From assembly GCA_015056125.1 (NCBI GenBank), contig SVGW01000018.1, positions 1-43,676 on the forward strand: DNA of 43,676 nt, in the 5' to 3' direction. Both the position numbers and the translations under genes were made by a program. Origin of the DNA: Clostridiales bacterium (lineage in GTDB: Bacteria > Bacillota > Clostridia > Christensenellales > Aristaeellaceae). Positions 164 to 26,295 of the stretch are shown in pieces; the first letter of the stretch is position 1, and each line of letters opens with the position of its first letter. The notes below the pieces were generated by a model. That model was not told the DNA's origin, did no database searches, and was given only the letters and a program-made list of their open reading frames with translations.

Positions 164-1990
164 ATGAAAAACAAGAAAACAAGAATCGCCCAGGCTTTCC
201 AGCGGGGGCTGCTGGTGCTGGTAGCCATTGCATTTTTGGCCACCACGGCTTTCCTATGGCTGATTCAAACGCGGCTGTCGGAGAACAACGCCATCAGCCT
301 GCTGGCGCTGAATCTATCGGACGTGCGGGAGGATATCATTGACGCATCGGATGAGAATCTTCTCGAACTGACAGAAAGTATTGCCTCCGATCTGAATGCT
401 ATAGAACACATTGATTCCGCCTGCTTGCCTGCGCTGATTGCTCAATATGACGTCACTGAGATCAACGTGATCGACCCAAACGGCTTCATCACCGCAACAA
501 CCTATCCCGATTTTATGAACTACAACATGCGCAGCGGCGACCAGTCCGCAGAATTTATGGTGCTGCTGGAAGGCCAGGATGCGTATGTGCAGGGCTACCG
601 GCCCGTTTCCTACGATGCATCCATTTCCCGCAAGTACGGCGGCGCGGTGCTGGAGCGCGGCGGCTTTGTGCAGGTGGGCTACGGCGCGGAGCGCTTCCAG
701 CGGGATATTGATGAATTCATTGTAGGGGTTACCCGCAACCGCCATGTAGGCGAGGGCGGCTGCATCATCATCGTGGATGAAAATTGGAATATTGTCAGCG
801 ATCGCTACGGCAACGAGGGCAAAAACCTGAATGTAACCGGCATCTGGATCGACTCCGCTTCCATGCCGGAAAACCAGGTATTCACGGCAGAAGTGTACGG
901 CCAAATCTGCTACTGCATGTATCGGACCACCGAGGGCTACTGCATCGTGGCCGCGATGCCAAGAAGCGAGGCGGCCCTTTCCCGCAATGTATCCGTGGGC
1001 GTGACCACCGCCATGCAAATCGTAGTGTTTGCAGCTCTGTTTATCATGATTTTTATCCTGGTAAAGCGCCTGGTGGTCAATAATATCTATCAGATCAATG
1101 ATTCCCTCTCCGCCATCACCGAGGGCAAGCTGGATACGGTGGTGGATGTTCGCTCCCACGTGGAATTTGACGATCTGAGCAACGATATCAACTCCACCGT
1201 AGATACCCTCAAGCGCTACATTGCCGATGCTGCCGCACGTATCGATGCAGAGCTTTCCTTCGCCAAGGCTATCCAGCATTCGGCGCTGCCGTCGATATTT
1301 CCGCCCTATCCGGACAAGAAGGAATTTGACATTCACGCAGCCATGTATACTGCCAAAGAAGTGGGCGGCGATTTTTATGATTTCTATTTCGTAGATGAGA
1401 ATACCTTGGCCTTCCTCGTTGCGGATGTATCCGGCAAGGGCATCCCGGCGGCTATGTTCATGATGCAGTCCAAAGCCCTGCTCAAAAGCTGCGCCGAATC
1501 CAAAATGAGCGTGGAGCAGGTATTCACCACCGCCAATGAAAAGCTTTGCCAGGGCAATGACGCGGGCATGTTTGTCACTGCATGGATGGGCCTTCTGAAT
1601 GTAAAGACCGGTGCGCTGACCTTCGCCAACGCCGGCCACAACCCGCCCCTTCTCAAGCGCGCCGATGGCAGCTTTGAGTGCCTCAGAACCCGGGCAGGCT
1701 TCGTGCTGGCGGGCATGGAGGGCATCCGCTACCGCAAGAACGAAATGCAATTGAACCCTGGCGATATCCTCTACCTCTACACCGACGGCGTGACCGAGGC
1801 CACCAATGAGAGCGAAAAGCTGTATGGCGAAGAAAGGCTGCTGAAGCTTTTGAACACTCATTCCTTTGCCTCTGCCCAAATCATCTGCGAAGCGGTGAAG
1901 GCGGATGTGGATGCGTTTGTAGGAAATGCGGAGCAATTTGACGATATCACGATGCTGTGCCTGCGTTACAACGGGGAGGTGGCTCCATGA
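164..1990 (+). CDS. Membrane-anchored SpoIIE/RsbU-type PP2C phosphatase with extracytoplasmic sensor and HAMP
   Basis: 608 residues. Transmembrane helix at about 13-33, a roughly 240-residue extracytoplasmic region resembling a Cache-type sensor, a second helix at about 284-302, a HAMP linker to about 355, then a PP2C/SpoIIE domain at about 370-604. Metal-binding motifs are visible: GGDFYDF near 401, ADVSGKG near 420, YTDGVTEA near 539 and FDDITML near 592. It should dephosphorylate the STAS protein encoded just upstream in response to an external signal. No Shine-Dalgarno is evident before the ATG, so translation is probably coupled to the STAS gene 5 bases upstream. Its stop overlaps the kinase start (ATGA). 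The ligand cannot be deduced. Confidence 0.9.
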   Translation: MKNKKTRIAQAFQRGLLVLVAIAFLATTAFLWLIQTRLSENNAISLLALNLSDVREDIIDASDENLLELTESIASDLNAIEHIDSACLPALIAQYDVTEINVIDPNGFITATTYPDFMNYNMRSGDQSAEFMVLLEGQDAYVQGYRPVSYDASISRKYGGAVLERGGFVQVGYGAERFQRDIDEFIVGVTRNRHVGEGGCIIIVDENWNIVSDRYGNEGKNLNVTGIWIDSASMPENQVFTAEVYGQICYCMYRTTEGYCIVAAMPRSEAALSRNVSVGVTTAMQIVVFAALFIMIFILVKRLVVNNIYQINDSLSAITEGKLDTVVDVRSHVEFDDLSNDINSTVDTLKRYIADAAARIDAELSFAKAIQHSALPSIFPPYPDKKEFDIHAAMYTAKEVGGDFYDFYFVDENTLAFLVADVSGKGIPAAMFMMQSKALLKSCAESKMSVEQVFTTANEKLCQGNDAGMFVTAWMGLLNVKTGALTFANAGHNPPLLKRADGSFECLRTRAGFVLAGMEGIRYRKNEMQLNPGDILYLYTDGVTEATNESEKLYGEERLLKLLNTHSFASAQIICEAVKADVDAFVGNAEQFDDITMLCLRYNGEVAP

Positions 1991-2400
1991 AGGAGATAAC
2001 CGTTGCCGCCACGGTAGAAAACATCAATACCGTTACCGATTTTGTGGAGGAGCAGTTGGAAGCCCTGGGCTGCCCCATGAAGGCCCGGATGCAAATCAAT
2101 ATCGCCATTGACGAGCTCTTTGGCAACATTGCTCACTATGCCTACGCGCCAGGCGTGGGCGAAGCCACCGTGCAGGTGGAGGCGGCGGAAAATAAGCGAT
2201 TCGTTTCGATCACCTTCATCGACGGCGGCGTGCCCTATGACCCGCTGGCTGCCGCCGACCCGGATACCGGCCTTTCCGCAGAGGAACGCGATATCGGAGG
2301 CTTGGGCATCTACATGGTGAAAAAGAGCATGGACGCCATCGCTTATCGCTATGAGGGCGGCAAAAATATCCTCACAATCCGGAAAAAAATCGGCGATTGA
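1987..2400 (+). CDS. RsbW/SpoIIAB-type anti-sigma factor serine kinase
   Basis: 137 residues of a HATPase_c_2 (GHKL) domain. The N box reads DELFGNIAH with the Mg-coordinating Asn at 47. The G1 box has DGG at 79-81, and a GGLGIYMVKK lid/G2 motif lies near 105. The start chosen is the ATG at 1987, overlapping the phosphatase stop and preceded by GGGGAGGT; an upstream in-frame ATG at 1957 lies inside the phosphatase gene. It would phosphorylate the STAS protein and hold an unseen target (sigma factor or other effector) until the phosphatase acts. Kinase family assignment is firm; the target is unknown. Confidence 0.9.
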   Translation: MKEITVAATVENINTVTDFVEEQLEALGCPMKARMQINIAIDELFGNIAHYAYAPGVGEATVQVEAAENKRFVSITFIDGGVPYDPLAAADPDTGLSAEERDIGGLGIYMVKKSMDAIAYRYEGGKNILTIRKKIGD

Positions 2401-2477: not shown

Positions 2478-2932
2478 ATAAAGCGAATCATTGCCGCCAT
2501 ATGCTTATCTTCCTGCGCCATGGCGGATGAAGCAGGAATGACCGCCGAACTGGCGCTTACCAAGGATGATGAGGACAACGTAATTTGGAGCCAAGCGGCT
2601 TACAGCTTCCTGGACGACTACTGGACTGCTCCCGACACCGTGAATCCCAGTCTCTGGGAAAACACCAAGAACAGCCATGCCTACGGCCTGTTTGAAGTCT
2701 GCCCGGACATCTATCAGGCGTGCTGCTGGTGTATGAAAATACCCATCACGATGATGCGGACGTATCCATCATCTGCCCAAAGAATACGCTTTTATACATT
2801 ATCACCAATAATCAGAAGGGGTTATCCGCGCTGCCCATGGAAGGCAATACATCGCTGATCACCCTGCTTTGCCAGAGCATGAACCAATTTCCAATGAGCG
2901 GCATCATGCCCTTCAATATCGTAGAGCCCTGA
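2478..2932 (+). pseudogene. Wreck of a secreted alkylsulfatase-like (MBL-fold/SCP2) lipoprotein gene
   Basis: Two fragments in different frames match opposite ends of the SdsA1/YjcS/BDS1-type alkylsulfatase family. Frame one (to about 2713) reads a short lipoprotein signal with lipobox LSSC, then the family motif APDTVNPSLW followed by GLFEV and DIYQ. From about 2717, in another frame, comes the C-terminal SCP2-like domain (DADVSIICPKNTLL ... MEGNTSL ... PFNIVEP). The whole metallo-beta-lactamase catalytic core is missing between them, so an internal deletion joined the ends out of frame. The expected start codon is ATA at 2478, placed correctly behind AGAAGAGGA, so the ATG itself also seems lost. 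Family recognition is from motif memory; no search was run. Confidence 0.75.
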
Positions 2933-2976: not shown

Positions 2977-3597
2977 ATGAAGATTTATACAAGCGATATT
3001 ACTCAAATGAACGATTTGCCCGGCTCCGGGCTGCTGACGCAAGCGCGCCGGGAGCGGATGCTGCGGTATTATCAGCTTTCCGATCAGGCGCGCTGCCTGG
3101 TTGCCGGCCTGATGCTCAGAAAAGTTTTGGGGGAAGAACAGGCGCAGCGGATTGCCGCCACAGCATTGGGAAAGCCCTATCTGCCCGGCGGCCCGCATTT
3201 TAGCCTTTCCCATTCGGGAAGCAAGGTGGTTCTGCTGGTGGATGCCCAGGAAGCCGGCGTGGATGTGGAGCAAATTGCGCCCTATCCCGAGATTGTGGCG
3301 CGCCGGGTCTTTACGCTCCGGGAACAGGCATGGCTCAAAAAACAAAAAGGCCATGAGGCTTTCTATCGGCTTTGGACCGGCAAGGAAAGCATCATGAAGG
3401 CACTGGGCCAGGGGTTCCATCTGCCGCCGGAAAGCTTTGAAATTTTGCCAGACAGCGCCGGGCCCAACTGGGTGCAGGGAGAGGCATGGTATTTAAAATG
3501 GCAAAATTTAGATAATCATATGCTGTGCTGTGCCTCGTCCATCCCGGATGCGCAGCCAGAAATGATTCACTTATCCCGCGAGGTGCTTTTGGAATAA
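2977..3597 (+). CDS. Sfp-type 4'-phosphopantetheinyl transferase
   Basis: 206 residues, normal length for the family. It transfers phosphopantetheine from CoA to the conserved Ser of carrier domains. Visible motifs: FSLSHS at about 75-80, GVDVEQI with the Mg-binding acidic pair D96/E98, and WTGKESIMKALG with W133, K136, E137 and K141. It lies 96 bases before the NRPS and almost certainly primes its three carrier domains. The ATG at 2977 follows ACAGGAA, a modest ribosome site. Start choice is fairly safe because the N terminus shows the usual short MKIY-type lead-in. Cytoplasmic; no odd features. Confidence 0.93.
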   Translation: MKIYTSDITQMNDLPGSGLLTQARRERMLRYYQLSDQARCLVAGLMLRKVLGEEQAQRIAATALGKPYLPGGPHFSLSHSGSKVVLLVDAQEAGVDVEQIAPYPEIVARRVFTLREQAWLKKQKGHEAFYRLWTGKESIMKALGQGFHLPPESFEILPDSAGPNWVQGEAWYLKWQNLDNHMLCCASSIPDAQPEMIHLSREVLLE

Positions 3598-3693
3598 ACG
3601 GATAGGAGCCTGTTTTTCCGCGCATCCGGAATGCACGCACATCCCGCCGGAAGCGCCTTTCACCTTAACAACAATATAGAAGGGGGCTTGCCC

Positions 3694-6600
3694 ATGTATT
3701 TGGATTTATTTGAAAAATCGGTTCAGGCGTATTCCACCAAGCCTGCGCTCTGCTTTGAAGGCGCTTTTATGAGCTATGCGCAGCTTGACCGGGAAAGCAG
3801 CCGGGTGGCCTGCGCCCTGGCCGCCTGCGGCGTTGGGCGTGGGGATATCATTGTGATCCGCCTGCCGCGTGGTTTTGAAGCCGTGGCCGCCATGATTGGC
3901 GTAATGAAGGCAGGGGCCGCCATCTGTGTGGTGGAGGAAGGCTATCCCCAGGATCGCATTGACTTCATCATTTCGGATACAATGGCAAAGATTATTATTG
4001 ACGGCCCTTTTATGGCTTCCCTGCCTGAAAACATAGCGATGGATCTGCCAAAGGCGCAAAGCAATGATCCTGCAATCGTTGTATACACCTCCGGCTCCAC
4101 CGGAAACCCCAAGGGCGTTGTAAATCCCCACCGTGCGCTCTCCATGGCAGTGCGCAACAGCGTGCTGATCCGTACTGCTCAGGATATCTTCCTGTCTGCA
4201 GCCTCATTCTCCTTTATCGCCGTCGCGCTGGAAATCTTTACGCCCCTCACGCTGGGCGGCACAATCCATATTGCCGGGGACAACCTGCGCAGGGATGCAC
4301 AGGCACTTGCAGATTATGTGTGCCAGCATGGCATTACCACCGCCTTCTTCCCGCCGCAAATGGCGCGTATCGTCCTGCCGCAGCTGGAAGATCAGCTTTT
4401 AAGCATGGTTGTCGCCTCTGAACGGGTGGTCAATCTGTACAGCAACAGGGTGCGCATTTTCAATCTTTACGGCTGCAGCGAAACCTGCAGCACACTGACC
4501 TGCTTTGAAATCAACCGTTCGTATCCCGACGGCACGCCCATCGGCAAACCCTGTGCCGGTAGCCGTGTGTATATTCTGGATGACGAGGGCAATCTGCTCC
4601 CCGACGGGCAGGAGGGCGAAATCTGCGTGAGTGGTCAGATTGCCAGCGGCTATCTGAATCTGCCGGAGCTGACGGCCGAGCGCTTCATCCCCAATCCCTT
4701 TTCCCAGGGTGAGGACGATCAGATTCTCTTCCGAACCAACGATATTGGCCGCATCAATGAAAATGGCCAATTGGAATATGTGCAGCGCAAGGATTGGATG
4801 GTGAAGGTGCGCGGCTACCGCGTGGAGCCCGGTGAAATCGAAGCGGCCATCGTGCGCTCTACACCGGCTGAGCAAGCGGTGGTAAAGGGCTTTACCAATG
4901 CCCTGGGCGAAACCAGCCTCTTTGGCGTGTATACCGCTCAATCGCCCCTCTCCCCTGAGGCGATTGTATCAGCCATTGGCGCCTTCCTGCCCTCCTATAT
5001 GATTCCCGCTTTCCTGGAGCAGGTGGATCGGCTGCCGCTCAATCCCAACGGCAAGGTGGATCGAAAAAACATTTTGCCGCCGGATATTGCCAAATTCAAG
5101 GCCCCCTATCAGGCGCCTGAAAACGAGCGGGAGCAGGCCATCTGCGAGGCATTCAGGCAAGTAATTGGCCTGGAGCAGGTGGGGATACTGGATGATTTCA
5201 ATCTCATTGGCGGCGATTCCATTTCCGCCGCAAAGGTGCAGGCGGCGCTGCCCGGCCTGGGCATTTCCACCAGCGATATTCTCAGCCTGGGCACGCCCCA
5301 AAAATTGGCTGCGCACAACCTGGCGGGCAAGCTGGAAAAAGCGGCGCCCCGCAAAATATGGCCGCTCACCTTCACTGAGCGCCAAATGGCCACCGAGCAG
5401 GGCATGAACCCCGATTCCGTTGCCTATAACATCAATTCTCTGGCCCTTCGCATAGAGGGCACATTCCATGCAGATAAGCTCGAAGAAGCGCTGAATGCCC
5501 TCTGCGAGCGCCATGCCGTGCTGCGCTCCTATTATCCCATGAACGGCGGCGAATATGAGCACCGCATCCGGGAAAAGATGCCCCTTTCCATTGCACGCCG
5601 CGCTTGCGCTGCCGATGATGTGATTGGCATCATCGAAGCGGAAAACCGGCCCTTTGATCTTGCCGGCGATCCCCTTGTGCGTTGCCAGCTCTTTGATCAT
5701 GGCGGCAATCTCTATACGCTTCACTTCTGCTTCCATCACATCATCATGGATGGAAGCAGTTGGCCCGCCTTTGAAAGCGAATTATTCTCCCTTTATCGCG
5801 GCGAAGCGCTGCCGCCCTTGGCATTTGATCATCAGGATTATGCCGTGTGGCAGGCGGAACACGCCGATCTGCGCGCCCAGGAGGCCGCTTTCAAAGATAT
5901 GTTTCAAGAGGGCGTGCCCGAAAACGAGATGCCCACCCATGCCTCCCGCCCGGATACATTGCCCTATGCGGATACCGATCTTGTGCGCATGATCTCCAGC
6001 CAAAAGCTCTCCGGCGCTGCCAAGCGCCTTGGCACCACCCAGTACGGCTTGCTTCTCAGCGTGCTTGGCATGACCCTTGGCAAATACAGCGCAAGCGAGG
6101 ACGTGATCGTGGGCACCGCCATGAGCGGCCGCACACTGCCCGAGCAGGAAAACATGATCGGCATGTTTGTCAACACCCTTCCCCTGCGCATGAAGCCCAT
6201 AGGCGATATGCCCCTCAAGGCCTTTGCCCTGGAAACAGCGAAGGCCATCCGCACCGTAAAAGCGAACCAGACCTATCCCTTTGAAAGGCTGGTTCCCTTG
6301 CTTGCGCCGGATCGGAATGCTTCCCGTGCCCCAGTATTCGATGTGATTTTTAACTACCTGCCCGAGCAGCCCGTACCTGTGCTGGATGGCGCCCGGGTCA
6401 GCTATCTGCCTGTGAAGGGACAGGCGCTGCAGATGGATCTGGTGCTGGAAGCCCTGCAGGAAGGGGAAAATACCCGGCTTGTGCTCTCCTATTCCAGAAA
6501 ACTCTATGATGATTCTGTTGCAGAAAACTTCCTGGAGCAGTTCCTGACCACCCTGGAGCGCTGCTGCGATCTGGATGGCGATACGCTGCTGGCGGATCTT

Positions 6601-9600
6601 TGCGAGCTTCCTCCGCGCCAATATCGCCAGATCGTGTGCGATTTTCCCGGCGAACGCGTGAAAGGCTGGCAGGGCAAAACGATGATCTCCCTGTTTAGCG
6701 AGCAGGCAGCCAAAACCCCTCAAAATTCCGCCGTTGTATTTCAAGGCAAATGCCTTACCTACGCTCAGCTTGATGATATCACCAACCGCCTGGCTGCCCA
6801 TCTGATTTCCCTGGGCGCAGGGAAGGGCGGCGTGGTAGGCGTGATGGTCAGCCGCGGCATGATGATGCCTATCGGTGCGCTCTCTGTACTCAAGACGGGC
6901 GCCGCCTATCTGCCCATGGACCCCAGCTATCCCTCCGATCGGCTGCAGTATATGCTTGAGGATGCAGGCGTTCGCATCCTGCTGTGCGATCCTGCGCTTG
7001 CGGGCAGGGTTCCGGATTTCACCGGCGTGATTGTATCCAGCACTGATGTGGGCGCGCTTCCCGCCGCAGCGCCCGTGCCCGATCAATCCCGTCCGGAGGA
7101 TCTGTTTATCCTCCTTTACACCTCCGGCACTACTGGCAAGCCCAAGGGCGTAATGCTCACCCACAATAACCTTGTAAATTATACGCATTTTTACGCATCC
7201 GCCTACGGCATTTGCGAAACCGATCGTATTCCCGCTTACGCCAGCTTTGGCTTTGACGCCAATATGATGGATATGTATCCCACCCTCCTCACGGGCGCAT
7301 GCTTGCATGTGCTGCCGGAGGAGATGCGTCTGGATCTGCCCGGCATCCGGGATTACTTTGAAGAAAACCAAATTACCGTTGCTTTCCTTACCACGCAGCT
7401 GGGCCGACAGTTTGCCGAGAGCATGCGCGTTTCTTCCCTGCGCGCCCTTTCCGTGGGCGGCGAAGCGCTGGTTCCCCTGAATCCCCCGCCCTTTGATCTT
7501 TTTAACCTCTACGGCCCCACTGAATGCACCGTGGCCTGCACTCGCCAAAGGGTGGACCGGCTCTATGATCGCGTGCCCATTGGCAAGCCCACGCCCAATA
7601 CGGCGCTCTATGTGGTGGATAGCCGCGACCGGCTTGCGCCCGTTGGGGTAGCCGGCGAATTGTGCATTTCCGGTGGGCAGGTGGCCGCCGGCTACCTTAA
7701 CCGCCCGGATCTTACGGAAGAAAAATTCGTTCCCAATCCCTTTAGCAATGATCCGGCTTTTTCCCGCATGTATAAGAGCGGCGATGTGGTGCGCTATTTG
7801 CCCGATGGCACCATTGATTTTGTGGGTCGCCGTGATTTTCAGGTCAAAATCCGGGGCTTCCGAGTGGAATTAACCGAGATTGAAGGCCGCATCCGCGCCT
7901 TTGCAGGGATTCGCGATGCCGCCGTGATCGCCCAGGAGGATGCCGGCGGCGGCAAGCGTGTTGTAGCCTATGTTGTTTCCGATGCGCCGGTTCACATCAA
8001 GGCGCTGAACGCTTTTATCGAGGAAGAGCTGCCCCCTTACATGGTGCCCGCAGCGACCATGCAGATTGAGCGCATTCCCCTCAACCAAAACGGCAAGGTC
8101 AACCGCAGGGAGCTTCCGCGCATTCAGATTCAGGCGGAGGAAAGCATCCCTCCGCGCACCGATATGGAGAAGGCGATCTTTGAAGTGGTTGCCGGCGTGC
8201 TCAAGACGGAGGCTTTCGGCGTGACCACCGATTTAATGTACGCCGGCCTCAATTCCCTTTCTGCGATCAAGGCGGCTGCCCTGATTACCGAACGCACGGG
8301 GAAAAACCTGCGCACCATGGAATTGATGCGCGAAAAGACTATAGAAAAAATTGCCGTCCTGCTTGATAAAAGCAGCGCCTACGAAGCCAAATCCTACGAA
8401 AAGCGCGAATACTATCCCCTCACCCAGAATCAGCTGGGGCTCTATTTCGCATGCATCAAGGATCCTGGCACACTGGTATACAATATTCCTTTTGAAATCA
8501 CCTTTGGCCCGGATACCGATGCCCAACAGCTTCTTGAAAGCGTTCAGCGCGTGGTAAACGCGCACAAGTACATGAAGACCCACTTTGCGCTCCGGGACAA
8601 CGAGCCTGTGCAGTTGCGGCAGGATGAGCTTGCGATTGATATTCCCATAATCACCTGCACAGAGGAGGAATATGAAGCGAAAAAGGCGGCCTTCGTTCGC
8701 CCCTTCTCCTTCTTTGAAGGGCCGCTGCTGCGCCTTGAAATCTGCAGAACGCCCCATGGCATACGGATGCTTTGCGATTTCCACCACATGATCTTTGACG
8801 GCGGCTCCATGGATATTTTCCTCCAGGATCTTTCCGCTGCCTATCGGGGGGAAGCGCTGCAGGCGGAAGCCTTTTCCAGCTTTGATCTGGCGCTGCTTGA
8901 GCAGGAAAGCGCCCAGGGAGACGCCCTTGCCCTGGCGAAAGCCTTCTTCCACCAGCGCCTGGGGGATGGCGAAGGGGCCACCCTCTTCCCCACAGACAGC
9001 CCGGCCGGCAGCGCAGGCCTCCCCCGCAGCGTGCACGCTAAAATCAGCAAGAGCAGCGTAGCGGACGCCATCAAGGGCCAAAGCATCACTGCCTCCAATC
9101 TCTTCCTGGCTGCCACCTCGCTCGTGGCCGGGCGCTTTGCCTCCACCCGCGATGTGCGTATTGCTTCCATCACCAATGGCCGCGAAGGCGTGTATGTGCA
9201 GCGCAGCATCGGTATGCTGGTTAAAACCCTGCCCGTCGCCCTGAAAATGAATCCAGACGATACCGCGTCCGCCTGCCTGCATAGCGTGCAGCAGGAGATG
9301 ACCGATGTGCTTTCCCATCAGGCCTATTCCTATTTGCAGGCCGCCTCCGACTATGGCTATAACAGCCAGATGCTGTATGCCTATCAGGGCGGCGTGGTTT
9401 CCGATTATTCTGTGGAAGGCACCCCGATCGCCCTCACTCCGCTTGGGCTAAATCGCGCCAAATTCCCGATCTCCATTAATATTCAGGAGGATGCACAAAG
9501 CTTCACCGTGGAAGCGGAGTATGATGATTCCCTCTATGCCGAAGCCACCATGCGCACCCTGGCGCAGTGCATCGCCTATACCGCGGGTCAACTGGCCTGC

Positions 9601-12600
9601 AAGCCGGAGGAGCGCATTGGCGCAATGTGCATCTGCACTGGGGAGCAGCGTGCGCTGGTTCAGTCCTTTGGCCAAAAGCCGGAGAGCATGCCATCAGGAG
9701 CGCTCCATCAGCTCTTTGAGGCTTGGGCCATGCGCACCCCGGAGCAGCCTGCGCTTATTGCCAGGGATGCCCAATTCACCTTTGCCCAGCTCAACGCCCG
9801 GGCCAATGCATTGGCCCACAGCCTGCTTTCTCTGGGCGTGCAGCCGGAGGATCGAATCGCCTTCATGCTTCCCCGCGACAGCCGCATTCTCATATCGATG
9901 CTGGGCATCATCAAGGCAGGGTGCGCCTATATCCCGGTGGATCCGGAATACCCCCGTGAGCGCGTGGAGCACGTGCTCAGCGACAGCGGCGCTCGCTTTA
10001 TCCTCACCAATGGGGATTCGCCGCTGGCAAACAGCCTTCATATAGACGATCTGCTGCTTTGCGAAAACACCGAAAACCCCGGGCTGCCCATCCATAGCAA
10101 CCGGCTGTGTTACATCATCTACACCTCCGGCTCCACAGGAAAACCCAAGGGCGTGATGCTCACCCACGGCGGCATCGTCAATTATGTGCTGGATGATCCC
10201 CAGAATCGCCATGTACATGCACTGGTGGAAAACAGATGCATCATGGCCTCTGTGACCACGGTGAGCTTTGATATGTTCCTCAAGGAGGCCTTCACCACCC
10301 TGATGAACGGCCTGACCTTGGTGCTGGCAGATGATGAGCAGGCCAAAAACCCGGATCAGCTGGCCGCGCTCTTTCGCAAGACCGGCGCCAACGCCTTTAA
10401 CGCCACCCCTTCGCGCATGCTGCAGTATATGGAATTGCCCGATATGAAGCAAGCGCTTGCCCAGTGCAAAGTGATCATGGCCGGTGGCGAAGGCTATCCG
10501 CCTGCACTGTACAGAAAGCTCCGGGAAATAACCGATGCCACGCTGATTAATACCTACGGCCCCACTGAAATCACCGTTTCTTCCAATGGTAAGCTCCTTG
10601 AAAGCGAACGCATCACCATCGGCGCGCCGCTCAAGGGCGTTGTGGAGGAAGTAATGGATATAGAGGGTCATCCGCTGCCGGTGGGCTTTACGGGGGAATT
10701 GTGGATCGGCGGAAACGGCGTGGCCCGGGGCTACTTTGGCAATCCCGAAATGACCGCCCAGCGCTTTGTGGAGCACGGCGGCATGCGCTGGTATAAATCC
10801 GGCGACGTGGCCCGCTGGACGGAAGATGGCGAAATCGTGATCCTTGGTCGAAACGACGGCCAGATCAAGCTGCGCGGCCTGCGGATTGAACTGGGTGAAA
10901 TTGAAAATGCCATCCGCGCTGTGGCTGAAATTCGCAGCTGCGCCGTGTTGGTTAAAAAGCTGCACGGGCAGGATCACCTTTGCGCCTATTATAGCGCCCA
11001 GCGCGATCTGCCGGCGGAGGAGCTGCGCGAAATTTTGCTCCGTTCGCTGACCAAATATATGGTGCCCACGGCTTACCTGCAGATGGATTGCCTGCCCATG
11101 ACGCCAAACGGAAAAATTGACCGAAAAGCCCTTCCCGATGCGAAACTGATGCAGCGCCAGGAATATGAGCCGCCGCGCAATGAAAACGAGCAGATCCTCT
11201 GCGATATTTTTGCCGGCATTCTGCATCTTGATCGCGTTGGTGCCACAGATAATTTCTTTGATATGGGGGGCACCTCCCTTCTGGTTACGCAGCTGACCAT
11301 TGATGCGGCAGCAAAAGGCATGGCGCTGAGCTATGGCGATGTGTTTGCCAATCCCACTCCCCGTGAGCTGGCAGCCCTCGGCCAGACGCCCAAAGAAAAG
11401 GCGGATCAGCATCTGATTGAAGATTATGATTACGCACCCATTCACACCCTGCTGGAAGAAAATACGCTGGATGCGCTTCGCATGGGTGAAATGCATGCTC
11501 TTGGCAACGTATGCATCACAGGCGCTACGGGCTTCCTGGGCATTCATGTGCTGCGCGCCTTCCTGCAAACGGAAAAGGGCACTGCTTTCTGCGTGGTTCG
11601 CGGAAGGAAGCAGCTCAGTGCCGAAAAGCGCCTTCGCAGCATGCTGGCCTATTACTTTGGCGGGGATGAACTGCCCTTCAACGGCAAAGCTTTCCTGGAT
11701 GCGCTGGATGAACTCATGGGCAGCCGAATCGTGGTAATCGATGGCAACATCACAGATCCCGCACTTTATCAGGCCCTGGATGCGCTGCCCATTGACACCT
11801 ATATCAACTGCGCAGCCAATGTGAAGCATTTCTCCGCCGGAACGGATATTGAAGACGTCAACTTAGGCGGCGTAAAGCTGGCCCTTGACTTTTGCAAAGG
11901 GAAGCGCTGCCGCTTTGTGCAGGTATCCACCGCCAGCATTGGTGGAATGAGCGTAAACGGCCAGCCCCTTGAAACAGAGAAGCTGGATGAACGCATGCTC
12001 TACTTTGGCCAGGATCTATCCAATAAATATGCCGGCAGCAAATTCCTTGCAGAGCGCGCTATTTTGGAAGCGGCGCTTCAGGGCCTGGATGTGAAGATCA
12101 TGCGTGTGGGCAATCTGATGGCTCGCGATGCAGATGGCGAATTCCAGGCGAATTTCCGCACCAATAATTTCCTCAGCCGCCTCAAGGCCTATCACCTCGT
12201 TGGCGCGATCCCCTATGAAGCCATGGGGATGAGCACCGAATTTGCCCCCATCGATTATACGGCGCTATCTGTGCTGTTGCTGAGCAAAACGCCCAAGGCA
12301 TGCCGCGTCTTCCATCCGTATAACGATCATGACGTATTCCTTGGCGATGCCGTTTCCGCGCTTGCCAAGCAAGGCATCGTTATCGAGCCCTGCGAGGCCT
12401 GTGAATATGAGCGCAGATTCAGCGAAGCCATGCGCGATCCCCAAAAGGCGAAGCACCTCAATGCACTCATCGCCTATCAGGAGCATGGCAAGAGAATCGT
12501 GCCCATCAAATCCGTCAACAGCTACACCTCACAAGTGCTGCTGCGCCTGGGCTTTATGTGGCCCATCACGTCCGAACAATATCTCAGTCAGTTCTTTGTG

Positions 12601-12645
12601 ATGATGAAGGGCCTGGGCTTCTTTGATCATGACAGTGCGCTTTAA
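3694..12645 (+). CDS. Trimodular non-ribosomal peptide synthetase with terminal thioester reductase (A-T-C-A-T-C-A-T-R)
   Basis: 2983 residues; ATG at 3694 follows AGAAGGGGG (an in-frame ATG at 3631 lacks a ribosome site). Domains: A1 about 1-455, T1 with Ser509, C1 from 556 (HHIIMDG 681-687), A2 about 997-1475, T2 with Ser1521, C2 from 1573 (HHMIFDG 1697-1703), A3 about 2003-2480, T3 with Ser2528, reductase from about 2600 (ITGATGFLG; Y2779/K2783 of YxxxK). All catalytic signatures look intact; there is no epimerase or thioesterase. Pocket reading by eye against GrsA: A1 has Ile175 at the Asp235 position, so it probably loads an acid without an alpha-amino group. A2 has Asp1188 and reads about DAMFSGLVA (hydrophobic). 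A3 has Asp2193 and Lys2197, about DMKNMGTVS, with Lys as in Glu codes. Reductive release predicts an N-acyl dipeptide aldehyde (or alcohol). Substrates are inference. Confidence 0.95.
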   Translation: MYLDLFEKSVQAYSTKPALCFEGAFMSYAQLDRESSRVACALAACGVGRGDIIVIRLPRGFEAVAAMIGVMKAGAAICVVEEGYPQDRIDFIISDTMAKIIIDGPFMASLPENIAMDLPKAQSNDPAIVVYTSGSTGNPKGVVNPHRALSMAVRNSVLIRTAQDIFLSAASFSFIAVALEIFTPLTLGGTIHIAGDNLRRDAQALADYVCQHGITTAFFPPQMARIVLPQLEDQLLSMVVASERVVNLYSNRVRIFNLYGCSETCSTLTCFEINRSYPDGTPIGKPCAGSRVYILDDEGNLLPDGQEGEICVSGQIASGYLNLPELTAERFIPNPFSQGEDDQILFRTNDIGRINENGQLEYVQRKDWMVKVRGYRVEPGEIEAAIVRSTPAEQAVVKGFTNALGETSLFGVYTAQSPLSPEAIVSAIGAFLPSYMIPAFLEQVDRLPLNPNGKVDRKNILPPDIAKFKAPYQAPENEREQAICEAFRQVIGLEQVGILDDFNLIGGDSISAAKVQAALPGLGISTSDILSLGTPQKLAAHNLAGKLEKAAPRKIWPLTFTERQMATEQGMNPDSVAYNINSLALRIEGTFHADKLEEALNALCERHAVLRSYYPMNGGEYEHRIREKMPLSIARRACAADDVIGIIEAENRPFDLAGDPLVRCQLFDHGGNLYTLHFCFHHIIMDGSSWPAFESELFSLYRGEALPPLAFDHQDYAVWQAEHADLRAQEAAFKDMFQEGVPENEMPTHASRPDTLPYADTDLVRMISSQKLSGAAKRLGTTQYGLLLSVLGMTLGKYSASEDVIVGTAMSGRTLPEQENMIGMFVNTLPLRMKPIGDMPLKAFALETAKAIRTVKANQTYPFERLVPLLAPDRNASRAPVFDVIFNYLPEQPVPVLDGARVSYLPVKGQALQMDLVLEALQEGENTRLVLSYSRKLYDDSVAENFLEQFLTTLERCCDLDGDTLLADLCELPPRQYRQIVCDFPGERVKGWQGKTMISLFSEQAAKTPQNSAVVFQGKCLTYAQLDDITNRLAAHLISLGAGKGGVVGVMVSRGMMMPIGALSVLKTGAAYLPMDPSYPSDRLQYMLEDAGVRILLCDPALAGRVPDFTGVIVSSTDVGALPAAAPVPDQSRPEDLFILLYTSGTTGKPKGVMLTHNNLVNYTHFYASAYGICETDRIPAYASFGFDANMMDMYPTLLTGACLHVLPEEMRLDLPGIRDYFEENQITVAFLTTQLGRQFAESMRVSSLRALSVGGEALVPLNPPPFDLFNLYGPTECTVACTRQRVDRLYDRVPIGKPTPNTALYVVDSRDRLAPVGVAGELCISGGQVAAGYLNRPDLTEEKFVPNPFSNDPAFSRMYKSGDVVRYLPDGTIDFVGRRDFQVKIRGFRVELTEIEGRIRAFAGIRDAAVIAQEDAGGGKRVVAYVVSDAPVHIKALNAFIEEELPPYMVPAATMQIERIPLNQNGKVNRRELPRIQIQAEESIPPRTDMEKAIFEVVAGVLKTEAFGVTTDLMYAGLNSLSAIKAAALITERTGKNLRTMELMREKTIEKIAVLLDKSSAYEAKSYEKREYYPLTQNQLGLYFACIKDPGTLVYNIPFEITFGPDTDAQQLLESVQRVVNAHKYMKTHFALRDNEPVQLRQDELAIDIPIITCTEEEYEAKKAAFVRPFSFFEGPLLRLEICRTPHGIRMLCDFHHMIFDGGSMDIFLQDLSAAYRGEALQAEAFSSFDLALLEQESAQGDALALAKAFFHQRLGDGEGATLFPTDSPAGSAGLPRSVHAKISKSSVADAIKGQSITASNLFLAATSLVAGRFASTRDVRIASITNGREGVYVQRSIGMLVKTLPVALKMNPDDTASACLHSVQQEMTDVLSHQAYSYLQAASDYGYNSQMLYAYQGGVVSDYSVEGTPIALTPLGLNRAKFPISINIQEDAQSFTVEAEYDDSLYAEATMRTLAQCIAYTAGQLACKPEERIGAMCICTGEQRALVQSFGQKPESMPSGALHQLFEAWAMRTPEQPALIARDAQFTFAQLNARANALAHSLLSLGVQPEDRIAFMLPRDSRILISMLGIIKAGCAYIPVDPEYPRERVEHVLSDSGARFILTNGDSPLANSLHIDDLLLCENTENPGLPIHSNRLCYIIYTSGSTGKPKGVMLTHGGIVNYVLDDPQNRHVHALVENRCIMASVTTVSFDMFLKEAFTTLMNGLTLVLADDEQAKNPDQLAALFRKTGANAFNATPSRMLQYMELPDMKQALAQCKVIMAGGEGYPPALYRKLREITDATLINTYGPTEITVSSNGKLLESERITIGAPLKGVVEEVMDIEGHPLPVGFTGELWIGGNGVARGYFGNPEMTAQRFVEHGGMRWYKSGDVARWTEDGEIVILGRNDGQIKLRGLRIELGEIENAIRAVAEIRSCAVLVKKLHGQDHLCAYYSAQRDLPAEELREILLRSLTKYMVPTAYLQMDCLPMTPNGKIDRKALPDAKLMQRQEYEPPRNENEQILCDIFAGILHLDRVGATDNFFDMGGTSLLVTQLTIDAAAKGMALSYGDVFANPTPRELAALGQTPKEKADQHLIEDYDYAPIHTLLEENTLDALRMGEMHALGNVCITGATGFLGIHVLRAFLQTEKGTAFCVVRGRKQLSAEKRLRSMLAYYFGGDELPFNGKAFLDALDELMGSRIVVIDGNITDPALYQALDALPIDTYINCAANVKHFSAGTDIEDVNLGGVKLALDFCKGKRCRFVQVSTASIGGMSVNGQPLETEKLDERMLYFGQDLSNKYAGSKFLAERAILEAALQGLDVKIMRVGNLMARDADGEFQANFRTNNFLSRLKAYHLVGAIPYEAMGMSTEFAPIDYTALSVLLLSKTPKACRVFHPYNDHDVFLGDAVSALAKQGIVIEPCEACEYERRFSEAMRDPQKAKHLNALIAYQEHGKRIVPIKSVNSYTSQVLLRLGFMWPITSEQYLSQFFVMMKGLGFFDHDSAL

Positions 12646-12662: not shown

Positions 12663-14429
12663 GTGTATGAAAGAACGGGCAAATTGATCCGTGAAAAATT
12701 CAGGGAATATCTGCTTCCCACCGTCATGACCTCCATGGCGGTATCCATGGCATCGGTGGTGGACGGCGCCATCGTAGGAAATCTGCTGGGAGATGTGGCC
12801 CTGGCTACCGTTGGCCTTGCCGGCCCCATCATTTTCTGCATCAACCTGATTTATATGCTCTTTGGAATTGGCGGGCTTACCTGTGCCTCCATTGCCAGAG
12901 GCAAGCGCGAAATGCATCAGGCCAACCTGATCTTCACCCTTACGATCGGTATGGGCGTAGGAGTGATGCTGGTATTCTCTTTGGCCATGCAGTTCATCAT
13001 GCCATCGCTTTCTCTTTCCTTGGCTGGAAATGATGCGTTGCTTGCCTCCATGCTGGAAAGCTATCTCAGGCCGCTGGTTTTTACCGGTCCTGCCCTGATG
13101 TTTTCCTCCGGCATGGCGCTGTTCATTCGCACCGATGGTCAGCCCAAGAGTTCCGCCCTGGTCGTTATCATCGCCAATGCGGTCAATCTGGTATTTGACT
13201 ATGTGCTGATCCGCTTCTTCCACGTTGGCATCTGGGGTGCAGGCTTTTCTACAACGCTGGGCTATGTGGCCGGTGCGGCCATTGTGCTTCCGTATCTGTT
13301 TTCCCAAAAACGCAATTTCCGCTTTGTGCGCCCCGGTAGGGAAAGCCTGCGAACGCTTGGAAATATCCTGGGAACCGGCCTGCCCAAAGCCCTGATTCAG
13401 GTTGCCAATATTCTTCGCTCGCTGGCGCTCAATTCCATCATCATCAGTTTTCTGGGGTCAATCGGCATGTCCGTGATGACCGTATGCATCAATGTGCAGA
13501 TGATTTCCAATATTTTTGTCGGCGGCGTATCCGATGCTCTTTTGCCCATTGTGGGCACGCTTTTTGGAGAAAGAGACAGCTATGGCATCCGGCAAACCAT
13601 GAAGAGCGCGCTCACTGTGCTTGCCGCTTCCTGCGCAGCGCTGCTAGCGCTTCTGCTGCTTGCCCCGCAGCTCATGGGTATGGCCTTTGGCATGAATTCC
13701 GCCCAAGGAATGGCCGCGCTTAAACCGGCACTGCGCCTGTTTGCCCTGTATTTGCCCTTTGACGCAGCCATTCAGCTGCTTCAAAACTTCTATACCACCA
13801 CCGGTCGCAAGCGGATGGCCTCTGCCATGGTGATCATGAATGGCTTGATTTTTGTGCTGCCCTTTGCCTTTCTCCTGGCCCATGCCGCGCCCGATTTTTT
13901 CTGGCTCTGCTATGCCTGCTCGGGGGCTGCTACGCTGCTGGTGACAGCCGCCGTATGCAAGCGCATACAGAAAAAAGAGCGACTTGGCAGCGTACTGCTG
14001 CTCCGGGAAACCAATGATCGTGATATCCGATACGACGTGACCATCAAGGCAACTGCGCAGCAAGCAACGGGCTTATCAGCGCACCTCATCGCCTGGTGCA
14101 CCAAGCAGGGATTGGATGCGCGCATGGCCAACAGGGTGGGCGTGGCCATGGAAGAGATGGCCGTCAGCACTGCGCATTATGCCCATGGCGGAAGCGACAA
14201 AGGGGTGATTGACGTAGCCATTCGCCTGACCGATGAAACGCTTGAAATTCGGCTGCGCGACAATGGCCAGGCTTTCAATCCGGTGGAATATATTGCAGAT
14301 GAAAATGACGGCTGCATCACCGATGGCGTCCGCCTCATCCGGCAATTGGCAAAGAGCATCGATTATGCCCGTCAGTTAGGCTTTAATACCACGGTCATCA
14401 CCTTTTCCCGTATGCCAAAAAAGCCTTGA
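12663..14429 (+). CDS. MATE-family efflux transporter fused to a C-terminal RsbW-like HATPase domain
   Basis: 588 residues, about 130 longer than a normal MATE pump. Residues 1 to about 445 are twelve hydrophobic segments with MATE features (VDGAIVGNLLG near 35, AGPALMFSSGMALF-like repeats). Residues about 455-588 form an RsbW/SpoIIAB-like GHKL domain: a degenerate N box (EEMAVSTAH, Ser502 where Asn is expected), a G1-type DNGQAF at 533-538, and a poor G2. Start is GTG at 12663 behind AAGAAGGGGG, 17 bases after the NRPS stop, so it is co-transcribed with the NRPS and probably exports its product. The Asn loss suggests the domain may bind a STAS partner without kinase activity. The fusion is visible; its role is inference. 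Confidence 0.88.
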   Translation: MYERTGKLIREKFREYLLPTVMTSMAVSMASVVDGAIVGNLLGDVALATVGLAGPIIFCINLIYMLFGIGGLTCASIARGKREMHQANLIFTLTIGMGVGVMLVFSLAMQFIMPSLSLSLAGNDALLASMLESYLRPLVFTGPALMFSSGMALFIRTDGQPKSSALVVIIANAVNLVFDYVLIRFFHVGIWGAGFSTTLGYVAGAAIVLPYLFSQKRNFRFVRPGRESLRTLGNILGTGLPKALIQVANILRSLALNSIIISFLGSIGMSVMTVCINVQMISNIFVGGVSDALLPIVGTLFGERDSYGIRQTMKSALTVLAASCAALLALLLLAPQLMGMAFGMNSAQGMAALKPALRLFALYLPFDAAIQLLQNFYTTTGRKRMASAMVIMNGLIFVLPFAFLLAHAAPDFFWLCYACSGAATLLVTAAVCKRIQKKERLGSVLLLRETNDRDIRYDVTIKATAQQATGLSAHLIAWCTKQGLDARMANRVGVAMEEMAVSTAHYAHGGSDKGVIDVAIRLTDETLEIRLRDNGQAFNPVEYIADENDGCITDGVRLIRQLAKSIDYARQLGFNTTVITFSRMPKKP

Positions 14430-14703: not shown

Positions 14704-14771
14704 ACGGCCTTTTATGCAGAACATTGTGGATAACGCAATAGAAAATGTCAATTTCCCGATACTGGAATGTA

Positions 14772-14800
14772 TTGCATTTTTCGTCAAGCCAGGGTATGCT
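14772..14800 (+). promoter_or_regulatory. Promoter of the GH2 gene
   Basis: TTGCAT at 14772-14777, a 17-base spacer, and TATGCT at 14795-14800. The expected transcript start is about 35 bases before the ATG at 14842. Spacing is ideal; each hexamer matches four of six consensus bases. Confidence 0.5.
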
Positions 14801-14841
14801 ATATATATCCATCAACGTTTTTTGCAAGGAGGATATATCCT

Positions 14842-17463
14842 ATGCCCTGTATTCCCAAGCCCGAATTCCCCCGCCCGGAAAAAAGGCGTGAAAGTTGGCT
14901 GAATCTCAATGGCAACTGGCAATTTGAATTATTTGCCGAAGGAAATGAAGAAGCGGAAAAGCAATTTAGCAAAAACAGAAATTCGTATTCCCGCGTAATC
15001 CGGGTGCCCTTTTCCTGGGTGAGCCCCTTAAGCGAAGTGGAAGAAAATGTGGCCGGCATCGGCTGGTATCGCCGGGAAGTGGAATATGCCAAAAAGGGCC
15101 GGGTTTTCTTGTGCTTTGGCGCGGTGGATTACAAGACCGATGTATATGTAAATGGCAGCCTGGCCGGCCATCATCAGGGCGGCTATTCCTATTTTGAAGT
15201 GGAAGCCACCGCCCTTTGGCGGGAAGGCAAAAATACCGTGGAAGTGCGCGCCGAGGATTACCGCCGGGAAACCCAGCTCTATGGCAAGCAGGGCTATGGC
15301 GAAATTCAAGGCATCTGGCAAACCGTGTGGTTGGAGGACCGGCCCCAAAGTTATATCCGGGATTTTCGGATCACCACCCGGATCTGCGGCGATGTAATGC
15401 TGGATATCTGCGCGGATGCTCCGGATGGGGATACCATTTCCGCCTGCTTTGAAGGCCATTGCGCCAGCGCCAAGGTAGAAAAGGGAAAGGCGAATATCCT
15501 TCTGCACATTGACAATCCCCATCTCTGGTGCCCGGGCGATCCCTACCTTTATGAAGGCAAATTGCAGCTGGGAGACGACCAGGTGTTCACCTACTTTGGC
15601 GTGAGGGAAATTTCCTGCGAAAAAGTGGATGGACGGGGGTATAAATGGATTCTGCTCAACGGCAAGCCCATCTATCTCCAGGGCACCCTGGATCAGGCCT
15701 TCCATCCGCAGGGCCATTTCACCTATCCCACCGATGATGATATGTATCAGGAGGCCTTTAGGCTCAAGCGCCTGGGGCTGAACATGGTGCGCATCCATAT
15801 CAAGCCGGAAGAGCCCCGCAAGCTTTACTGGATGGATAAGCTGGGCATTCTGGTGATGGCGGATATTCCCTGCTTCTGGGGCCCGCCCATTTTGGAGGCC
15901 AAGGAAGCCTACGAAAACGAAATGCCCGAAATCATGCAGCGGGATCTGAATCACCCCGCCATTTTTGCCTGGGTGGTGTTCAATGAAAGCTGGGGCCTGC
16001 TGGATAAGGAAAAGGAAGAAAAGGTATACAGGAAAGAAACCCAGGAATGGGTGCGCAGCATGTATCATAAGGCCAAGGCTATTGATCCTGAGCGTATTGT
16101 GGAGGATAATTCCCCCTGCCGCTATGACCATGTGGAAACCGACCTGAACACCTGGCATTTCTATCTGAACACCTATCCCGTGGTGAGGGATCATATCCGC
16201 AAGATCGTTGAAAACACCTACCCCGGCTCGGAATTTAACTATATCGGCGGCAACAAGCAAACCGACGCGCCCTTGATGAACAGCGAATGCGGCATGGTGT
16301 GGGGGGTGGAAAATTCCGCCGGCGACAGCGATCTGGCCTGGCAGTACCACTACATGCTCAATGAATACCGGCTCCACGAAAAGATCTGCGGCTTCGTATT
16401 CACCGAATTCCACGATGTGGTGAATGAATTTAACGGCTACTATCGCATCGATAACAGCGATAAGGATTTTGGCTATCAGGACCTGTGCCGGGGCATGACG
16501 ATACGGGATCTGCATGCGGATGATTTTGTGGCCACCGACTGCCCGCCCATGCAGAGTGTAAACGCGGGGACCAAAGTGAAAATTCCCTTGGTGCTTTCCA
16601 GCTTTTCTGATAGGCACCATCAAGAAAACTGCAAAATCGCCTGGGAGCTTTGGCACGATGGCCTCCGGGGCCGCGTAACCGATGACAGCGGCGAAATGGC
16701 CTTACCTCCCTTTGGCTACGGCGCCACTGCTCTTGGTGATCTGGAAGTGATCATGCCCACGGAAAACGCCGCTCCCGTGCTTTCCCTGTATCTCATGGAC
16801 AGCCAGGACAGCGTGATCTCCCGCAATTTTGTGGCCTTTGACGTGCAGGCAAAGCTTCCTGAAAACATGATCGAAGTGCCCGTATGCCAAGGCAAGGCCA
16901 GCGGCTTTGAGCCGGTGTGGAAGGCCCTGGTGGATGATAAACTGTGCCTGGGCGGCGCAGGTGAAGTGAGCTATGATATCGCGCTGCCTGGCGGGCTCAT
17001 CCGGGATATCACGCTGCACATGGAGGCCGGGGCCAAGCGAGTGCTGAAAAAGGACTGCAAGGAAGTGGGCGCAGCGGAGCCTGATCTGGGCTTTATGCGG
17101 GGTTACCTTGTGGACCGGGGCGCTTTTGAAAATTCCTATTGGATGACGGATGAAAGCCGCTTCCCATCGGATGTGGAAGTGCTGGTAAACGGCGAAGTGA
17201 TTCGGGAAATGCATCTTGAAAACGACTGGGCCGATGCTCGGGGCATGCTCAGCTGGCATCGGCAGCCCCAGGAGCGCCATCTAGATGAAGCCGGCTCCTA
17301 CGGAGAACAGCAGCATATCCCCATTCCCAGCCGCCTGCTCAGCGGCATTGCCAGGGATGGCCGCTTCACCCTCACCTTCCGGGTAAAAGCTAAGGGCGGA
17401 TTGGCCCTCTACGGGCGCAATTGCGGGCGCTATCCCTTTGGCCTTTTGGTAGAAGTAAACTGA
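14842..17463 (+). CDS. Glycoside hydrolase family 2 enzyme (beta-galactosidase/glucuronidase/mannosidase-like)
   Basis: 873 residues. The N-terminal jelly-roll sugar-binding domain opens with WLNLNGNWQFELF, followed by an Ig-like domain and a TIM barrel. The acid/base is likely Glu382 in VVFNESWG and the nucleophile likely Glu482 in NSECGMVWG, both in the usual GH2 places. An additional beta-rich C-terminal region follows to the end. No signal peptide, so it acts in the cytoplasm on imported oligosaccharides. The ATG at 14842 is chosen because AAGGAGG ends nine bases upstream; an in-frame ATG at 14767 lies before that site. Substrate cannot be fixed: the family covers several beta-linked sugars. 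It converges on a GH92-like gene, which suggests a glycan-trimming theme. Confidence 0.9.
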   Translation: MPCIPKPEFPRPEKRRESWLNLNGNWQFELFAEGNEEAEKQFSKNRNSYSRVIRVPFSWVSPLSEVEENVAGIGWYRREVEYAKKGRVFLCFGAVDYKTDVYVNGSLAGHHQGGYSYFEVEATALWREGKNTVEVRAEDYRRETQLYGKQGYGEIQGIWQTVWLEDRPQSYIRDFRITTRICGDVMLDICADAPDGDTISACFEGHCASAKVEKGKANILLHIDNPHLWCPGDPYLYEGKLQLGDDQVFTYFGVREISCEKVDGRGYKWILLNGKPIYLQGTLDQAFHPQGHFTYPTDDDMYQEAFRLKRLGLNMVRIHIKPEEPRKLYWMDKLGILVMADIPCFWGPPILEAKEAYENEMPEIMQRDLNHPAIFAWVVFNESWGLLDKEKEEKVYRKETQEWVRSMYHKAKAIDPERIVEDNSPCRYDHVETDLNTWHFYLNTYPVVRDHIRKIVENTYPGSEFNYIGGNKQTDAPLMNSECGMVWGVENSAGDSDLAWQYHYMLNEYRLHEKICGFVFTEFHDVVNEFNGYYRIDNSDKDFGYQDLCRGMTIRDLHADDFVATDCPPMQSVNAGTKVKIPLVLSSFSDRHHQENCKIAWELWHDGLRGRVTDDSGEMALPPFGYGATALGDLEVIMPTENAAPVLSLYLMDSQDSVISRNFVAFDVQAKLPENMIEVPVCQGKASGFEPVWKALVDDKLCLGGAGEVSYDIALPGGLIRDITLHMEAGAKRVLKKDCKEVGAAEPDLGFMRGYLVDRGAFENSYWMTDESRFPSDVEVLVNGEVIREMHLENDWADARGMLSWHRQPQERHLDEAGSYGEQQHIPIPSRLLSGIARDGRFTLTFRVKAKGGLALYGRNCGRYPFGLLVEVN

Positions 17464-19868: not shown

Positions 19869-19945
19869 ATTTCCCCTCCAAAATGTTTTTTCCAACTTAA
19901 ATGCCGCCATATCGCAGGCAGGAATTTCTTTCCCTTTATTGATTC

Positions 19946-26279: not shown

Positions 26280-26295
26280 CTTTCTTCCTCCTGCC

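Follow-up and report, generated by a model that had tools for sequence, protein, structure and literature searches.

A conserved clostridial nonribosomal peptide synthetase predicted to release a ruminopeptin-like capped dipeptide aldehyde

The NRPS gene and its domain organisation

The window, which is the whole 43,676-nucleotide stretch of clostridial DNA analysed here, carries on its forward strand a nonribosomal peptide synthetase (NRPS) gene, accompanied by genes for a 4'-phosphopantetheinyl transferase (PPTase), a MATE exporter and two probable regulators (Table 1). The NRPS is encoded by a single uninterrupted frame with no internal stops, in which a Pfam scan (E 0.001) recognised three AMP-binding domains, two Condensation domains, PP-binding domains (two stretches pass the threshold) and a C-terminal NAD_binding_4 reductase. 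Inspection of motifs revealed three carrier serines, HHxxxDG in both C domains, core motifs A3, A8 and A10 in all three A domains, and both TGATGFLG and YAGSK in the R domain. The domain order A-T-C-A-T-C-A-T-R, which an earlier reading of the sequence (the original prediction) had proposed, is thus borne out by both approaches.

Although the frame is open from base 3631, translation more likely starts at 3694, because the frame of the orthologue L063 begins at the equivalent methionine. Residue numbers counted from base 3694, as in the original prediction, are converted to those of the frame opening at 3631 by adding 21; in the former numbering Ile175, Asp1188, Asp2193, Lys2197, Tyr2779 and Lys2783 were all found exactly at the positions claimed for them. 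Specificity codes, the computation of which had also been proposed, were extracted for all three A domains with position 301 anchored on the first Gly of the GGE motif. The same nine domains in the same order, 72-84% identical across the whole length, are found on contigs of four other genomes (G265, G096, G097 and G409), which makes an assembly accident unlikely; the cluster is real, intact and conserved.

Table 1. Features of the NRPS cluster, by position in the window
Feature	Coordinates	Strand	Basis
SpoIIE-type phosphatase, probable regulator	164..1990	+	Pfam
Free RsbW-like kinase, N box intact, probable regulator	1957..2400	+	Pfam, alignment
4'-Phosphopantetheinyl transferase (PPTase)	2977..3597	+	Pfam; also beside orthologous NRPSs
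NRPS gene, A-T-C-A-T-C-A-T-R	3694..12645	+	Open frame from 3631; Pfam and motif check
A1, loading adenylation domain, code IALFVALST	3694..5088	+	
T1, carrier domain (GGDS)	5101..5340	+	Motif check
C1, condensation domain	5356..6645	+	TycC condensation domain (2jgp) is best solved relative
A2, code DAMFSGLVA, Asp235 kept, pocket largely apolar	6676..8145	+	
T2, carrier domain (GLNS)	8167..8385	+	Motif check
C2, condensation domain (HHMIFDG)	8401..9645	+	Motif check
A3, code DMKNMGTVS; Asp235 at bases 10270-10272, Lys239 at bases 10282-10284	9676..11145	+	
T3, carrier domain (GGTS)	11167..11400	+	Motif check
R, thioester reductase; TGATGFLG; Tyr at bases 12028-12030, Lys at 12040-12042	11431..12642	+	Pfam, PDB relatives, motifs
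MATE exporter with C-terminal RsbW-like (HATPase_c_2) domain without N-box Asn	12663..14429	+	Pfam, alignment

Gene neighbourhood

In the window and in the four close genomes, the PPTase gene lies upstream of the NRPS gene and the MATE-RsbW fusion downstream. Among 19 such fusions, aligned and read by eye, the N-box Asn is lost from the fused domain in the window and its seven closest relatives and is kept in 10 of the 11 more distant proteins, L110 being the exception; the sequence of this domain suggests a probable pseudokinase wired to the transporter. Genes for SpoIIE and RsbW proteins are located upstream of the NRPS in the window and in L038/L070, and SpoIIE proteins are encoded near other relatives too, with a STAS protein near L074, while neither SpoIIE nor RsbW was seen beside L035, L037 or L063.

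No STAS partner was recognised beside the SpoIIE/RsbW pair at 164-2400, and the 112-residue frame at 2520-2858 (+), situated between the regulators and the PPTase, was rejected for this role, having no Pfam hit when the threshold was relaxed to E 1. The frame appears to be the remnant of a gene, since it can be aligned with the N-terminal region of an alkyl sulfatase encoded close to the L035 cluster (73% over 56 residues). Alkyl-sulfatase genes are also present near the L067 and L069 clusters, and a tie of this enzyme to the acyl starter is possible.

Distribution of relatives

In a sample of 300 genomes of the family, for each of which only part of the first-pass candidates was scored, the NRPS found a match at E 1e-100 in 53 genomes, the window's own included, and full-length relatives at 72-84% identity in only three others (G265, G096 and G097); ten further genomes of the same genus gave matches at only 28-43%. 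A search with A3 in 396 genomes of the order returned eight at E 1e-105, again including the window's own, and contributed one further close relative, G409, from another family. Scanning of named genomes with two peptide patterns yielded 32 loci: eight at 69-84% identity (L067-L070, L072-L074 and L089), four of which repeat the contigs of the four close genomes; five at 45-54% (L071, L075, L076, L077 and L086); one at 34% (L090); and 18 at 27-31%, from Bacillus, Paenibacillus and others. The stated sources of three close relatives are goat caecum, sheep rectum and water deer rectum. Plasmids of PLSDB carry only distant NRPSs, with the best place below 60% identity in all 392 records. The patchy presence over several families suggests horizontal movement of the gene.

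One of the loci, L077 (46% identity), comes from outside Bacillota to judge by its contig title, uncultured Desulfovibrionaceae; either horizontal transfer or a binning error could account for this.

The loading module

A1 contains Ile at position 235 (bases 4216-4218), and its A5 proline is replaced by Cys (bases 4474-4476; YGCSET). Among the 91 A domains from 33 loci, window included, that were placed in a phylogenetic tree, 71 possess both Asp235 and the A5 proline, 19 neither, and a single domain of L052 the proline only, so that the proline is missing in 19 of the 20 domains without Asp235 and in none of the 71 with it. Eighteen of the double-loss domains come first in frames with more than one A domain, and these form one group in the tree (SH-aLRT 99); the nineteenth (L048, 525-3647) is the sole A domain of its frame.

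Besides position 235, the window's A1 shares three of eight code positions with A2 of the same protein, and in L070 five of eight are shared between A1 (IALFVGLGP) and A2 (DALFSGLIA). Positions 330/331 are occupied by Gly-Pro in 12 of the 14 other A1 domains and by Ser-Thr, as in the window, in none, and position 301 is Gly in all 14 and Ala in the window, which suggests that the starter pocket has changed here. The solved relatives nearest to A1 are amino-acid A domains, with LgrA the best, and none of the 60 PDB entries listed is a fatty-acid ligase by name; on these grounds a FAAL loader was rejected.

A probable acid-selecting pocket in the last module

The A3 code DMKNMGTVS is exactly reproduced in 10 of the 11 readable orthologues other than the window (L067-L075, L077 and L086, among which L068 nearly duplicates L073; L076 and L089 stop short of A3 and are left out), including some that are only 45-51% identical, and is therefore not a matter of chance. 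The exception is L071, with DVGWMGSID. The same code occurs in the last modules of L117 (A-T-C-A-T-C-A-T-R) and L119 (A-T-C-A-T-R), DMKNLGTVS in those of L111 (C-A-T-C-A-T-R) and L110 (C-A-T-C-A-T-C-A-T-R), and the same pocket or Lys239 variants in those of L118, L121 and the partial L120, all from A3 searches of 394 genomes of L075's order and 247 of G1013's family. Among the matches from two order-level A3 searches, only three (L099-L101) of the 16 relatives' A domains read have Lys239. None of four code strings was found as a printed word in the literature, where codes are often tabled letter by letter.

Eight of the 18 distant loci (27-31% identity) provided a control, in which the same extraction gave DAKDLGVVD for the first A domain of all four Bacillus loci and DLTKVGHIG in three. 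These are the textbook codes for Glu, with Lys239, and for Asp, with Lys278; the Bacillus loci are presumably surfactin-like lipopeptide synthetases that incorporate Glu and Asp accordingly.

In the tree, Lys239 is present in 18 of the 71 domains with Asp235, namely in 16 of the 32 standing last before R versus 2 of the 39 others, counts that are inflated and no survey, because the loci were partly selected by A3 likeness and include near copies. The two non-last domains are the first domain of L054 and a Bacillus Glu domain. The 17 non-Bacillus Lys239 domains fall within a group of 19 rows (SH-aLRT 97), the two rows without Lys239 being L071 and an L052 domain, and the Bacillus Glu domain is placed outside this group.

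L054 (4551-11846) is a C-A-T-C-A-T-R synthetase with a Lys239 pocket, DLKNMGTIS, in its first rather than its last module, and perhaps accommodates an acidic residue at an inner position.

The middle module and reductive release

The code of A2 varies little among the orthologues and is apolar. With Asp235 retained, the pocket probably accepts Leu or another aliphatic residue, in agreement with the aliphatic pocket named in the original prediction.

Comparison with the PDB placed the R domain closest to 6vtj (258.6 bits), an R domain from Methanobrevibacter ruminantium, followed by the AusA reductase (83 bits), and among the solved R domains named AusA scores above MxaA. The intact motifs and these relatives support a terminal reductase and reductive release as a prediction, and the chain would leave as an aldehyde rather than an alcohol. 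The R domain of the Staphylococcus aureus synthetase AusA, to which the present one is related, releases an aldehyde. The NCBIfam model of AusA matches residues 1290-2992 of the NRPS, but its score of 1533.5 bits stays below the curated cut-off of 2500, and the NRPS is not an AusA member; AusA is not known to have an acyl-loading A-T.

Predicted product and alternative readings

Judged from domain order, pocket residues, conservation and neighbouring genes, the product is best read as a ruminopeptin-like aldehyde of the form N-acyl (or 2-oxoacyl)-aliphatic-Glu. A1 would load a non-amino carboxylic acid, most likely a short, medium or branched aliphatic one, on T1; C1 would couple it to an aliphatic amino acid picked by A2; C2 would append an acidic amino acid, most likely Glu, picked by A3; and R would free the chain by reduction as an N-acyl-Xaa-glutamal, a peptide aldehyde. 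The carrier domains would be primed by the PPTase and the product exported by the MATE protein, with expression probably governed by the SpoIIE/RsbW pair. Since the N terminus would be capped, closure to a pyrazinone is not expected and the aldehyde should remain an electrophile, able to trap the active-site Ser or Cys of proteases that cleave after Glu. The explanation as a whole, from the non-amino starter through the aliphatic residue and Glu to reductive release of a protease inhibitor, is moderately favoured.

Its first step admits more than one starter. The double loss seen in A1 is not specific to keto acids, because acyl-CoA and aryl-acid ligases are likewise not known to have the A5 proline; the code of A1 looks like those of keto-acid domains. 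In StsA, a crystallised α-keto-acid domain, Asp235 is replaced by Ile and the A5 proline by Met, and introduction of the proline abolished activity (PMC11253843). A1 has Ile and Cys at these places. A fatty acid, which the original prediction named beside other carboxylic acids as the likelier starter, is therefore not the sole reading, since Ile235 with a non-proline A5 is the published α-keto-acid signature as well; what stands of that claim is the non-amino-acid start, for which loss of the A5 proline now serves as a second signature beside the loss of Asp235. Even this loss is no strict bar to amino acids, because McyG is described as activating Phe despite Val at 235 (PMC11253843). If an α-keto acid were loaded and, for want of a ketoreductase in the synthetase, left unreduced, the product would be an N-(2-oxoacyl)-Xaa-Glu aldehyde, electrophilic at both ends. 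This would agree with the description of keto-acid A domains as typically aliphatic at 235 and, at the remaining positions, coded as for the corresponding amino acid (PMC10949194), to be compared with the resemblance of A1 to its own A2, closer in L070 than in the window. It is nevertheless rather unlikely: keto-acid modules described so far carry a ketoreductase, of which the Pfam scan (E 0.001) found none in the NRPS, and none of the 60 PDB entries listed for A1 can be identified as StsA from its name. The starter may thus be a fatty or an α-keto acid. That loaders of the clade in general pass α-keto acids unreduced, to give N-(2-oxoacyl)-aliphatic-Glu aldehydes with an α-ketoamide at one end and the aldehyde at the other, appears quite improbable.

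The last residue could be Asp, Gln or another polar residue instead of Glu, the one in the preferred N-acyl-Xaa-glutamal. The A3 code is presumably the Orn code DMENLGLIN with Lys in place of Glu239, as would suit an isosteric acid; this speaks against a residue other than Glu. Only four of nine positions agree with the Bacillus Glu code, so the complete surfactin-type code is absent, and related last modules vary (DFKGIGTVS, DFKAIGTVS, DVKIVATVS); however, the Bacillus Asp domains place their lysine at 278, not 239. K239E in surfactin's Glu domain is reported to shift it towards Gln, with higher Gln selectivity, and K278Q in CDA to have led to a product containing Gln (PMC11355689); the former effect indicates that Lys239 reads the carboxylate. 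A last residue other than Glu is therefore doubtful, and selection of an acidic residue by A3, most likely Glu, is well argued, though not proved, in line with the original prediction, which the conserved Lys239 code and the Bacillus controls sharpen in favour of Glu over Asp. As to release, four-electron R domains exist, and a reductase acting twice would give an alcohol; the Glu side chain could also close on the aldehyde, forming by chemical inference a cyclic hydroxy-lactone, and in either case there would be no free aldehyde inhibitor. Such an outcome is unlikely in view of the higher score of the aldehyde-releasing AusA over MxaA. The gut relatives on record also release aldehydes (PMC12327764, PMC8518294). 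Least probable of all is that the product acts chiefly as a signal or self-regulating factor, as SpoIIE/RsbW-type regulators beside a number of relatives, though not beside L035, L037 or L063, might imply; against this, nature is known to make protease inhibitors by releasing capped peptides reductively (PMC12327764, PMC8518294).

Relation to known systems

Capped dipeptide aldehydes of gut Clostridia are known already, among them ruminopeptin, an N-acyl Leu-Glu aldehyde, and other N-acyl peptide aldehydes (PMC12327764, PMC8518294). The ruminopeptin (rup) system of Ruminococcus bromii, compared by its product description only, resembles the predicted pathway in yielding an N-acylated dipeptide aldehyde with Glu last. 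The NRPS has a pocket for an apparently acidic last residue, with Lys239 conserved and the Bacillus Glu control in support, and shares with the gut clostridial systems modules ending in a thioester reductase and a predicted non-amino acyl starter step. The original reports of ruminopeptin and related peptide aldehydes are said to include inhibition of GluC. BGC0001686, which is described as producing N-octanoyl-Met-Phe-H, is alike in that its NRPS product is a capped dipeptide aldehyde (PMC8518294), but according to this description it has a neutral last residue, unlike the Lys239 pocket and A-T loader found here.

The gene context is also known in part, since an account of Methanobrevibacter ruminantium M1 from 2010 describes an NRPS beside a MatE exporter, serine phosphatases and an anti-sigma factor antagonist, and a separate cluster with a PPTase and an anti-sigma kinase (PMC2812497). 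The mix of neighbours around mru0068, mru0351 and mru0513-0516 is similar to that in the window, whereas the synthetases differ, mru0068 consisting of two C-A-T modules and mru0351 of four modules (PMC2812497).

The idea behind ruminopeptin, namely a capped dipeptide aldehyde that ends in Glu, is hereby widened to ruminant-hindgut and other contigs from several bacterial families. Further clusters may be found by a Lys239 pocket of the DMKNxGTVS kind immediately before R, and by the joint loss of Asp235 and the A5 proline in the loader. Should the compound be produced, it would find a natural target in the Glu-specific proteases of gut bacteria, and the genes for export and regulation point to where production conditions might be sought. 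The original reading was a good prediction; the present analysis narrows it for A3 and broadens it for A1.

Other genes near the cluster

Some relatives encode additional proteins. A 362-residue protein is located between the PPTase and the NRPS in L038 (6582-7670), L067 (8917-10005), L070 (8897-9985) and L089 (8903-9991) and is absent from the window; that of L070, the one scanned, matches Acyl_transf_3, and a further acylation is possible. A protein of 458-463 residues that matches AMP-binding weakly, and may be a separate enzyme for acid activation, follows the cluster in L067 (20819-22195), L070 (20784-22160), L071 (19220-20611) and L077 (20170-21552) and is likewise not present in the window.

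Downstream of the cluster, the window encodes a radical SAM SCIFF peptide maturase at 20339-21718 (+), which scores 764 bits with TIGR03974, above the cut-off of 425; the next protein, at 21722-23062, is Orn/Lys/Arg-decarboxylase-like. Four glycoside hydrolases are encoded nearby, at 14767-17463 (+), 17850-19910 (-), 24252-26330 (-) and 28767-30671 (+); they comprise GH2, GH92 and two rhamnosidase-like enzymes, a set such as might be carried by an organism feeding on plant or host glycans.
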